Source: a virus
Virus record (IMG/VR): IMGVR_UViG_3300021957_000191
Span: 1 to 30,264 of that record
Length of the DNA stretch: 30,264 nucleotides
Reading direction: 5' to 3' (one strand)
Shown here: positions 23,930-26,072 of the stretch, piece by piece
How positions within the stretch are numbered: position 1 is the stretch's first letter
Layout of the letters: each line of letters begins with the position of its first letter
Notes under the pieces: model-generated
Told to the model about the DNA's origin: nothing
The model's database searches: none
What the model saw: the letters and a program-made list of their open reading frames with translations, nothing else
Program-made: the position numbers and the translations under genes

Positions 23930-24517
23930 ATGCCATCACCATCTAAGAATAAAGGATCAGGATTTGAAAGAGAAGTCGCAAGATATCTTTCAGAAACTTA
24001 CGAAGAAAGTTTTATCAGAGCGCCTGGATCAGGTGCATATGTAGGTGGCAAAAATCAAACACGTACAGAAATTTTACATGAAGGACAAATCAGAAGTTTT
24101 AAAGGGGACATTGTTCCTGGAGAAAGTTTCTATAAGTTAAACATAGAATGTAAGTTCTATGCAGATTTTCCTTTTCATCAACTTCTATCAGGCTCATGTA
24201 GAGTCTTAGAAGAATGGCTCGACCAGTTAATGGATGTGCATGATGAAGGAGATTTTGATGTACTCTTTATGAAGTTTAATCGTAAAGGTCGGTTTGTATG
24301 TGTTCCGAGTAAATACACATTCGTAAGTGACCAGTTCATTTATTACACATCAGACAAACATTCTGACTGGGTAATATTTGCTTGGGATCACTTTTTTCAT
24401 TTTAACAAAGATATATTTAAAGCATACGCAGGCGACACAGAGACCAACTCAGAACCCACCGTTGACACCAAGTCACAACTATCCTTAAACACAACCACAA
24501 CTAAAATAGACTTTTAA
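23930..24517 (+). CDS. PD-(D/E)XK nuclease, Holliday-junction-resolvase-like
   Basis: The 195-aa protein has the order of motifs of the PD-(D/E)XK fold: an N-terminal KGSGFEREVARYLSE helix (conserved Glu), an acidic position KGDIVPG (D60), and NIECKFY (E73 and K75 of the ExK pair). The arrangement resembles Hjc/RecB-like nucleases used by phages as resolvases or recombination nucleases. The C-terminal 25 residues are Thr/Asn-rich and probably disordered. A strong AAGGAG overlaps the radical SAM stop, but is 13 nt from the ATG. It is the last gene of the gp47 operon, so a role in branched-DNA processing beside gp46/47 fits. Enzymatic specificity (junction cleavage or other) cannot be read from the sequence. 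Confidence 0.75.
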   Translation: MPSPSKNKGSGFEREVARYLSETYEESFIRAPGSGAYVGGKNQTRTEILHEGQIRSFKGDIVPGESFYKLNIECKFYADFPFHQLLSGSCRVLEEWLDQLMDVHDEGDFDVLFMKFNRKGRFVCVPSKYTFVSDQFIYYTSDKHSDWVIFAWDHFFHFNKDIFKAYAGDTETNSEPTVDTKSQLSLNTTTTKIDF

Positions 24518-24522
24518 CATAT

Positions 24523-24901
24523 AGTATAGTCGTAATTTATACTCGACTCTCCTTGAGGAACCCATTGTAGTGATGGGCAACAGAACTGGAGTAGTGTCTT
24601 ACAGACATATAAACCGACAAGGCAATCGTTATGGTAGCGAACCTTGAATGAGTCTATATCTATTTTGATTTGATGATATAGAACATGCGTTGCTGAGAGG
24701 TCATGCTTATTAGTATGATTGGCTCAACTACAACCCAGCAAACTTTACAGGGCAACCGGTAGCAATCGTTAATAGTAACGTTAATGATTGGGGATAATCA
24801 ACATGGATGACAGGGGGTAATGAGAACCTGAACCGTGGTAGTGTTTGATAGCACTACCATGGCTTCTAAAAGGTAATAAGTCTTCTAACATTATCCTTTT
24901 A
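24523..24901 (+). ncRNA. Candidate large structured RNA of unknown class
   Basis: This gene-free stretch folds by eye into consecutive hairpins. Positions: 24523-24528/24538-24543; 24546-24552/24588-24595 enclosing 24561-24565/24573-24577; 24618-24622/24642-24646 enclosing 24627-24630/24636-24639; 24653-24660/24675-24682; a three-tier stem 24690-24695/24736-24741, 24697-24699/24723-24725, 24701-24706/24713-24718; 24763-24772/24781-24790; an 11-bp stem 24833-24843/24852-24862; and 24867-24877/24890-24901. Four stems contain one T-G pair each, which pairs as G-U only in plus-strand RNA. A 10-base repeat GCAATCGTTA occurs at 24622 and 24762, each time starting a similar small hairpin. No long reading frame exists. 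I found no match to tRNA, tmRNA, RNase P, intron or riboswitch consensus that I know. It could be co-transcribed with the nuclease operon. Boundaries are approximate. Confidence 0.6.
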
Positions 24902-24959
24902 AAATAATAGATTAACCGTTTAAAAAGAAATTACGAATGAACGAAGTGAATGAGTAATT

Positions 24960-24981
24960 AAGTTCTCGTAAGAGAACTTTT
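24960..24981 (+). terminator. Terminator-like hairpin ending the plus-strand unit
   Basis: An 8-bp stem AAGTTCTC / GAGAACTT with a GTAA (GNRA) loop is followed by a short T run (24978-24981). It lies between the RNA candidate and the 3' end of the minus-strand gp51-position ORF. The short T run makes it modest; the A-T-rich hairpin at 24867-24901 is an alternative stop. Bases 24902-24959 show only the weak stem AATTAC/GTAATT. Confidence 0.45.
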
Positions 24982-25005
24982 AAATAAGACCGAAAAGAAT
25001 ATAGA

Positions 25006-25194
25006 TTAGAAGAATGGCATTTGAGTTTTCTTAGTAGTTTCTAAGTGTTCCTCAACTAAATTGTTTATGGCTTTCCTTTCTGCTTGGGACATGTTAAGGA
25101 TATCTTCATATGAGGCACCACCACGCATATACCAGGCTAAAGTCAATGCGTTCGACTTTATGCCCTGAGTAAATTCTTCATATTTTGATATCAA
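25006..25194 (-). CDS. gp51: Small gp51-position protein, probably made as a -1 frameshift extension of gp26
   Basis: This 62-residue frame (LISKYEEFTQGIKSNAL, then TLAWYMRGGASYEDILNMSQ, ending TKKTQMPFF) directly follows gp26. gp26 is followed by gene 51 in T4, whose product is a baseplate hub assembly catalyst. The AWYMRGG...E-I-N pattern recalls short downstream proteins next to gp26 genes in other T4-like phages; this is from memory. No good start codon exists: the first candidate is a TTG at 25194 with the AAGGGAG Shine-Dalgarno touching it (zero spacing), and the first ATG falls inside the conserved WYMRGG motif. The frame is open upstream, through the gp26 stop region, to a slippery site. 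The expected product is therefore a gp26 fusion of 355 aa, not a free protein. Confidence 0.72.
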   Translation of the reverse strand: MISKYEEFTQGIKSNALTLAWYMRGGASYEDILNMSQAERKAINNLVEEHLETTKKTQMPFF

Positions 25195-25242
25195 CTCCCT
25201 TATCCCTTCAGGGTCGAGTGAAAGGAGTCTTAGACGAAAAAA
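25194..25242 (-). promoter_or_regulatory. Programmed -1 ribosomal frameshift signal (gp26 to gp51)
   Basis: On the minus strand, T TTT TTC (25242-25236) is in the gp26 reading frame with the X XXY YYZ phase. It is followed by a 7-nt spacer containing the gp26 stop, then a stem ACTCCTT (25228-25222) with AAGGGAGT (25201-25194, one bulged G). Its loop contains a CCC-TGAA-GGG mini-hairpin. The -1 frame reads without stop into the downstream ORF. The 3' arm also covers that ORF's only Shine-Dalgarno-like sequence. Confidence 0.75.
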
Positions 25243-26072
25243 TCCGATGCGTTCAATGTAAATGGTTGCTTATATTCATGCCCACATTCTTCACATTTGA
25301 TGTCTAATGGTTTAATTGTTGATTTCTCTCTAAGTTTAGTGTTATGATCTCTTATAGTTTCATAAGTTTTTGTATCAGCATTCTGTAGAAAATCATATAT
25401 ATGATCAGAATTCGTTACCTCTCCTTCTGGAGTAACGATCTTACTAATTGTGTTGGATAAGATTTCCATTGTTAGAATTGTAATATCTTTTAAGGCTTCA
25501 CCACTTACTGCTCCACGTTCTGTTGGATCTTCAATAGCAGATAGACCTTTATACTTTGCTTGAATGTCAAATTGCTTTAGTGCGGCATCATTCATTTTTC
25601 TATAGTCTAAGGGTGAATAGTAAATTTCTAATTCATTCATCTTTAATGGAGTTTCATAATCGCCAGGGCCTAATGATCTAAGTAAAATTTGTAAATTGAT
25701 ACCGTATGTACCTAAAGCCATACATTCTTTGTTTTCACATTCTGATTCTACATCAATTGTTTCTTGTCCACCTGCGGCTTTAATAGAAATTAGTACAGTA
25801 TCTAAATCAGTACTCAATAATGCCCAAGGGTTTTTGATGTCCGGAACACAACTTTTAATGATCTCAACCATAGCCGATCCATTAAACAATGCATCTGGAG
25901 TCTTAGTTGTAATCTCATCGATTGCTGTCATTGGATAGACAGGCAACTCTTTATTTTCTTCAGGCCATACTATGTCTTCTGGTGCGTATGCATCTCCACC
26001 TGAAGGCAAACTGATATGTACTGCCGGTCTACGAAAAAATTGTCGTAGTGGATTATTTTCATTCATTGTCAT
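25230..26072 (-). CDS. gp26: Baseplate hub protein gp26-like, possible tail assembly chaperone
   Basis: The 280-aa product resembles the T4 gp26 base-plate family of marine phages: PLRQFFRRPAVHISLPSGG, then PVYPMTAIDEITTKTPDALF, NGSAMVEIIKSCVPDIKNPW, LLSTDLDTVLISIKAA, and a C-terminal IKCEECGHEYKQPFTLNASD. Four cysteines in two pairs (C112, C117 and C260, C263) could form one zinc site. T4 gp26 is about 208 aa. The ATG at 26072 has a GGGG ribosome site 7 nt upstream; the ATG at 26066 is less well placed. The last codons GAT-TTT-TTC form a -1 slippery site leading into the gp51-position frame. It is transcribed away from the tape-measure candidate on the other strand. gp26/gp51 are needed for hub assembly in T4; the chaperone reading is an inference from the frameshift. 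Confidence 0.82.
   Translation of the reverse strand: MTMNENNPLRQFFRRPAVHISLPSGGDAYAPEDIVWPEENKELPVYPMTAIDEITTKTPDALFNGSAMVEIIKSCVPDIKNPWALLSTDLDTVLISIKAAGGQETIDVESECENKECMALGTYGINLQILLRSLGPGDYETPLKMNELEIYYSPLDYRKMNDAALKQFDIQAKYKGLSAIEDPTERGAVSGEALKDITILTMEILSNTISKIVTPEGEVTNSDHIYDFLQNADTKTYETIRDHNTKLREKSTIKPLDIKCEECGHEYKQPFTLNASDFFV

Follow-up and report, generated by a model that had tools for sequence, protein, structure and literature searches.

The stretch of DNA analyzed here (the window) comprises 30,264 nucleotides of the IMG/VR virus record IMGVR_UViG_3300021957_000191 and carries a series of plus-strand genes for a late sigma factor (phrog_12791), SbcD-like (gp47) and SbcC-like (gp46) proteins, a radical SAM protein and a PD-(D/E)XK nuclease (positions 23930–24517; PF24608; phrog_244, ‘RusA-like Holliday junction resolvase’), whose residues D60, E73 and K75 are invariant across 12 relatives. 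A T4-type baseplate gene (25230–26072, minus strand; PF12322) converges on this operon. Beside it lies a minus-strand ORF of 62 aa (25006–25194) without a Pfam or PHROGs match, and ORFs of similar length recur in many relatives. An initial assignment of the genome to the T4-like phages needs amending: these are not ordinary T4-likes. Judged by gp46, the closest isolates belong to the PA5oct-like jumbo phages, with 49.1% identity.

The gap between the convergent genes (24518–24985, plus strand) is the site of a large structured non-coding RNA of about 450 nt. The conserved element, which is defined by its fold, profile matches, covariation and the lack of an ORF, extends from about 24521 to 24981 on the plus strand. 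The original prediction had placed it at 24523–24981, downstream of the nuclease operon, which proved about right; a further conserved hairpin element is found upstream, at 24440–24474 within the nuclease gene. Positions 24523–24981 fold with a minimum free energy (MFE) of −128.4 kcal/mol, whereas shuffles average −100.3 (sd 6.06; z −4.63) and none of 100 does as well; they contain at least 10 hairpins, where at least eight had been claimed. No reading frame is conserved on either strand, with an open core frame in at most 29 of 169 distinct sequences, and protein coding on either strand was rejected, the longest frames resembling those of shuffles. ARAGORN detects no tRNA or tmRNA gene in the 30 kb window. 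Upstream of the RNA there is no excess of T4 late promoters, whose sites are fewer than in shuffles.

The secondary structure was drawn on one homologous locus (L041) and counted on an alignment (A1) in which 187 full-length sequences were reduced to 105 unique and 87 non-redundant ones at 97%, with a mean identity of 0.60. All helices are given for the plus strand of the window. At the 5′ end, P1 (24523–24548) was drawn by eye for the marine group as an H-type pseudoknot (24523–24527/24539–24543 and 24528–24532/24544–24548); in the form written from L041 it is only 69% paired because the marine rows are misaligned there. It is followed by P2 (24549–24591; 24549–24552/24588–24591, 100% paired) with its inner hairpin P2a (24561–24565/24573–24577, 87%) and by hairpin P3 (24594–24608), which is 90.4% paired with double changes in all eight pairs. 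The core is closed by Pc1 (24613–24760; 24613–24616/24757–24760), which is invariant in 87/87 sequences and hence uninformative for covariation. Pc2 (24689–24756; 24689–24693/24752–24756) is 100% paired with double changes in two of five pairs and includes the near-invariant strand ACUUUACAG.GCAACCGG. Within the core, P4/P4b (24618–24646) is 99.8% and 100% paired, with pair 188/218 being A-U in 44 and G-C in 43 sequences, and P5a/P5 (24648–24686) is 98.6% paired with double changes in 10 of 11 pairs. The variable hairpin P7 (24695–24725), taken from the MFE fold, varies in length, aligns poorly and reaches merely 64%.

Two long-range pseudoknots mark the core. PK1 (24665–24801) joins the P5 loop (24665–24670) to 24796–24801 (87.8% paired, 6/7 double changes, with co-changes seen on the tree), and P10 (24734–24792) pairs CCC (24734–24736) with GGG (24790–24792; 98%, 3/3 double changes). 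Between the strands of P10 lies hairpin P8 (24762–24789; 89–92% paired, double changes in 9/9 counted pairs). Further toward the 3′ end lie P11 (24811–24830; 24811–24814/24827–24830), whose two outer aligned pairs are 88% and whose third pair is only 46% paired, and P9 (24836–24859; 96.4%), a hairpin of near-invariant sequence (GGTAGTG.../...CACTACCATGG). T1 (24929–24959), with 78.5% paired one of the weak helices together with P1, P7 and inner P11, nevertheless has double changes in 6/6 pairs. In the variable linker before T1, the word ACCGT(A) (24911–24920) recurs in many but not all relatives. The presumed 3′ end is T2 (24960–24981; 97.6% paired, 7/8 double changes), a hairpin with a short T run. 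It had been described as a terminator-like hairpin with a GNRA loop. The hairpin proper (24960–24979) reads AAGTTCTC-GTAA-GAGAACTT and the loop is indeed GNRA; the T run has only four bases and no terminator was counted there by a consensus scan demanding at least 5 T in 8.

A lack of covariation in homologues would have refuted the original prediction; instead, covariation is strong and the hairpins are conserved. Across the alignment, 89.7% of 8,765 cells pair, compared to 76.8% in shuffled and 36.6–43.7% in slid controls, and double changes affect 78 of the 105 proposed pairs among the 87 non-redundant sequences, even though P1, P7 and T1, which are poorly aligned across clades, were included in the count. 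The covariation score is 0.368 (shuffled 0.149, slid 0.067–0.095), whereby the slid control favors the structure because this was drawn from one of the counted sequences. With a self-written script imitating R-scape, 18 column pairs are significant against a tree-based null, 17 of which form canonical pairs in 90% or more of the sequences, with one identity pair remaining. RNAalifold independently predicts the nested helices, with double changes in 38 of 52 pairs.

The structured RNA is read from the plus strand, as had been argued from four T-G pairs that are wobbles in plus-strand RNA alone. In the final structure, 24629/24637 extends P4b, 24705/24714 falls in P7, 24768/24785 in P8 and 24835/24860 at the base of P9. 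The argument carries over to the homologues, where G-U occupies 376 cells of the whole structure versus 187 for A-C, with ratios of 70:4 in P8, 37:6 in P3, 15:1 in P5 and 19:5 in PK1. The relation is reversed in P1 (29:40), P7a (26:46) and T2 (11:12), and for P1 and P7a the alignment of the marine-group sequences is poor.

Profiles detect the RNA in at least 339 fetched loci, at least 312 of them at full length and with at least 169 distinct full-length sequences; as loci overlap between scans, they represent fewer contigs, which reach up to 524,565 bases among the matches listed. The nuclease as query gives 80 loci, 79 with the RNA, and the remaining one (L020) stops within the nuclease gene; a nuclease profile yields at least 80 loci, 78 with the RNA and two cut at contig ends. 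A 21-base pattern from the RNA, blind to its neighbors, retrieves at least 119 loci, in every one of which profiles confirm the RNA, and a second RNA pattern adds at least 53 new loci, again with the RNA in all. Never are two copies present in any of the at least 339 loci, and five of five whole records have one site each. The terms marine and freshwater, as well as aquatic, are shorthand for sequence groups (two main ones in the case of the former) and are not derived from sampling sites.

The order nuclease-RNA-baseplate is found in 177 of the first 202 loci, with 24 missing one side and one (L185) lacking the nuclease, and in 114 of the next 131, with 17 missing one side. No gene is interrupted: wherever both sides are visible, the RNA lies between two separate convergent genes, with the baseplate gene downstream wherever that side can be seen. 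It starts a few to some tens of nucleotides past the stop codon of the nuclease gene and directly follows this gene in all loci with that side visible except L185, where a SegE-type GIY-YIG endonuclease (PF19835; L185:2656–3096, minus strand) takes its place directly before the retained RNA. This is the only such swap seen among the loci listed. Within a single clade of uncultured phages, the RNA is thus positioned invariably between nuclease and baseplate gene apart from this case, with a single copy per locus. Two further loci contain additional ORFs. In L110, an ORF of 215 aa with an HNH-like start (DIHHIDGNHDNN) is situated between gp46 and the nuclease, about 1.2–0.6 kb upstream of the RNA, whose location is unaltered. 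In L053, an inserted minus-strand ORF of 248 aa, 456–1202 nt past the nuclease stop, separates the RNA from the baseplate gene.

The PA5oct nuclease as query gives 43 loci, five of which contain the RNA according to model R1 (E 5.6e-54 or better) and 38 of which do not. Two of these 38, L473 and L477, show similar motifs (GGUACCGCACAACCGCC; GGUACAGGCCAACCGCCCC) in a gap of ca. 420 nt that follows the nuclease. These regions (L473:2020–2420 and L477:2017–2440), missed by R1, have the core word UACNG..CAACCG in common with the RNA. By eye, the P2 stem of L473 can be written as CCCA/UGGG vs CUCC/GGAG, and a possible Pc2 as GUUGUG/CACAAC in L473 and GUUGG/CCAAC in L477; the fold of L473 is only modestly better than shuffles (z −1.61, 8/100 as good). 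Both probably represent divergent relatives of the RNA, albeit unproven, and follow more distant nucleases. When five cultured phage relatives were searched over their whole records, no convincing copy turned up: SCTP-2 has only weak partial R1 matches (E 0.033 and 3.3), and in Atu_ph07 the nuclease match is oppositely oriented and no RNA is present. A DNA search of cultured phages produced no match apart from one 27-nt chance match, and among the listed matches of a pattern search in bacterial genomes (at least 117), none is the RNA.

The element probably includes a mini-hairpin, P0, in the last codons of the nuclease gene. Marine-group phages have two copies, here GAG-ACCAA-CTC at the 3′ end of the ORF (24440–24450, plus strand) and GAC-ACCAA-GTC (24464–24474, plus strand), the latter in codon-frozen columns. 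The pattern GA(C/G)-N5-(G/C)TC with complementary arms occurs in 82 of 84 loci, ca. 50–90 bases upstream of the RNA and mostly within the nuclease gene; the exceptions, L102 and L158, have GTC/GAC and GGC/GCC. A looser hairpin pattern is present in 111 of 715 control windows. Since one such hairpin may readily arise by chance, the argument is carried by conservation: in 107 non-redundant genes, the P0 codons GAC (85/85), ACC (82/98) and TCA (92/97) are three of the four most frozen columns. P0 is kept in the non-coding DNA of L185, where a remnant of the lost nuclease gene cannot be excluded.

P9 is flanked by the direct repeats A (GGTAATGAG, 24816–24824, plus strand), located in the P11 loop, and B (GGTAATAAG, 24872–24880, plus strand), which is drawn single-stranded after P9. 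These segments co-evolve by identity: columns 302 and 359 covary by carrying identical bases (GG, TT, CC), their 11 and 12 changes on the tree include 10 co-changes, and no third column tracks them. A parser of A and B fitted 122 of 165 distinct RNAs (46 records remained unparsed); their variable base agrees in 119 of these 122, where 47.9 are expected, and the three exceptions all have G against A. B is contiguous, and A often carries one or two extra bases in mid-segment. Unusual forms change jointly, for example CTGCATGT, which is present twice in L447. Among the unparsed sequences, several, L447 included, have longer words common to A and B, such as AC(GT)AGCAATAT vs ACAGCAATAT in L381 and AGCA(TA)GCATG vs AGCAGCATG in L449; others, such as L193 and L418, match more poorly. 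The longest common substring of A and B is 5.20 within the same RNA and 4.43 after permutation (highest of 2000 permutations 4.71); the own match exceeds that with the nearest different relative in only 10 of 87 cases and never falls below it. All these identity statistics rest on related sequences.

Simple gene conversion is disfavored by the length of only ~6–9 nt and by the extra bases that A stably retains, an insertion that conversion would erase. Translational bypass between A and B was rejected, as length differences in the loop separating A from P9 follow no reading frame. No complement of the segments was found as a shared perfect 7-pair site inside the RNA, and 808 kb of loci hold 46 matches vs about 49 expected, with no cluster in the flanks. 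Possibly, A and B serve as a pair of recognition sites for the same partner, an idea that we take seriously without considering it probable. More tentative still is the notion of an RNA machine that carries a word twice, contiguous in B and split in A, with both copies reading a fast-changing nucleic acid partner in a guide-like manner; this partner was not identified. It is an equally speculative part of this guide-like reading that the word varies among close relatives and yet is matched within each RNA. A guide RNA bound by the nuclease was weakened as a candidate by L185, which has the RNA without the nuclease.

That the element constitutes a functional class of non-coding RNA appears almost beyond doubt, and it is fairly likely, in the absence of transcript data, to act in trans and not only as a 3′UTR element. 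Our best guess is an RNA that acts in trans and carries its recognition site in duplicate, the function being inferred. The RNA might form the 3′ portion of the gp47/gp46/(radical SAM)/nuclease transcript or arise from a promoter located within the nuclease gene, end near the T1/T2 hairpins and accumulate as a stable trans-acting RNA or RNP. The pseudoknotted core of Pc1, P4, P5, Pc2, P10 and PK1 would then serve as a rigid scaffold, and the 3′ arm around P9 could offer the near-identical segments of 6–9 nt (A within the loop of P11, B as a single strand) to a single partner, presumably a different one in different phages. The weak T run of T2, the missing excess of T4 late promoters, the lack of an A/B partner in the RNA or the loci and the one or two extra bases that A often has over B speak against this scenario.

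A cis-acting 3′UTR of the recombination operon mRNA, mediating stabilization, autoregulatory protein binding or termination without any free RNA, would also fit an element that begins directly behind the nuclease stop, embeds P0 in the last nuclease codons and places T1/T2 before the convergent gene. Yet, a 400-nt double-pseudoknot core far exceeds the needs of stabilization or termination, and the persistence of the RNA in L185 after replacement of the upstream gene implies that it does not serve one particular mRNA; we hence regard this alternative as rather unlikely. Conceivably, the conserved unit might instead work as DNA, for example as a cruciform origin, recombination or packaging site that is processed by the resolvase and in which A and B are the sites. 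Its neighbors gp46, gp47 and the resolvase and the direct repeats around P9 would suit such a role, but G-U outnumbers A-C in the best helices and would give mismatches in DNA hairpins, and pseudoknots joining distant loops indicate RNA, which renders a DNA site highly improbable.

Just as little weight is given to a degenerate or unrecognized catalytic RNA, for which the pseudoknot topology on A1 speaks. Group I introns have the pseudoknot order P7-P3-P8-P7, which the succession of P10 5′ strand, Pc2/Pc1 3′ strands, P8 and P10 3′ strand resembles; the exon pair and the P4-P6 domain are absent here, and no gene is split that would call for splicing. For RNase P, ACAGAGCAACCG resembles a conserved stretch, but Pc1/Pc2 pair upstream, unlike in RNase P. 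Covariance models of the group I intron and RNase P find no match in the window or over the RNA in four homologous loci, and Rfam has none in the window segment even at E 5 nor over the RNA in these four loci.

Taken together, a stable trans-acting RNA or RNP with a scaffold core and an arm presenting A and B is the explanation that we consider likely overall, with transcription and function being inferred; everything else in this account is well supported. The RNA occurs in more than 160 distinct sequences at the end of a recombination operon, its alignment is deep enough to fix the fold including both pseudoknots, and the identity-coupled repeats provide a concrete handle. Should the partner prove to be a nucleic acid, the word targeted by the RNA would have switched about ten times in evolution. 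Large structured RNAs known from phages are few in number, and the function of every one mentioned here is unsettled.

With a conserved covarying structure and no ORF, the RNA meets the criterion for a large phage non-coding RNA. It probably represents a new class that matches no known RNA family, in line with the original prediction: Rfam 15 (4,227 families, GOLLD and ROOL included) gives no match at gathering score in the 30 kb window and none at 24400–25100 even at E 5, and in four homologous loci (L473, L477, L041, L185) there are two chance matches only, both outside the RNA. We found no description of it in the literature; a 2023 survey, which reportedly covers candidate structured RNAs in viruses and phages, may include the motif unnamed.

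No relation in sequence or context to GOLLD or ROOL was found. These are likewise large RNAs with multiple pseudoknots that are encoded by phages or prophages, often near tRNA islands, and have no known function (PMC12286853). GOLLD exceeds 800 nt, compared to about 450 nt for the phage RNA here, which moreover lies at a nuclease/baseplate junction with no tRNA in the 30 kb window. The abundant non-coding RNA of about 800 nt from the lytic phage ICP1 differs in length and in its place beside a lysis cluster, and shares with the RNA here that it is ORF-less and not near tRNAs; the same source cites a GOLLD RNA as dispensable for phage production (PMC7567579). OLE RNA comprises about 600 nt, is found mostly in Bacillota and works in a protein complex, unlike the RNA described here, which is without an Rfam match. 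Both are nonetheless alike in being large and ornate RNAs whose biochemical role is unresolved.
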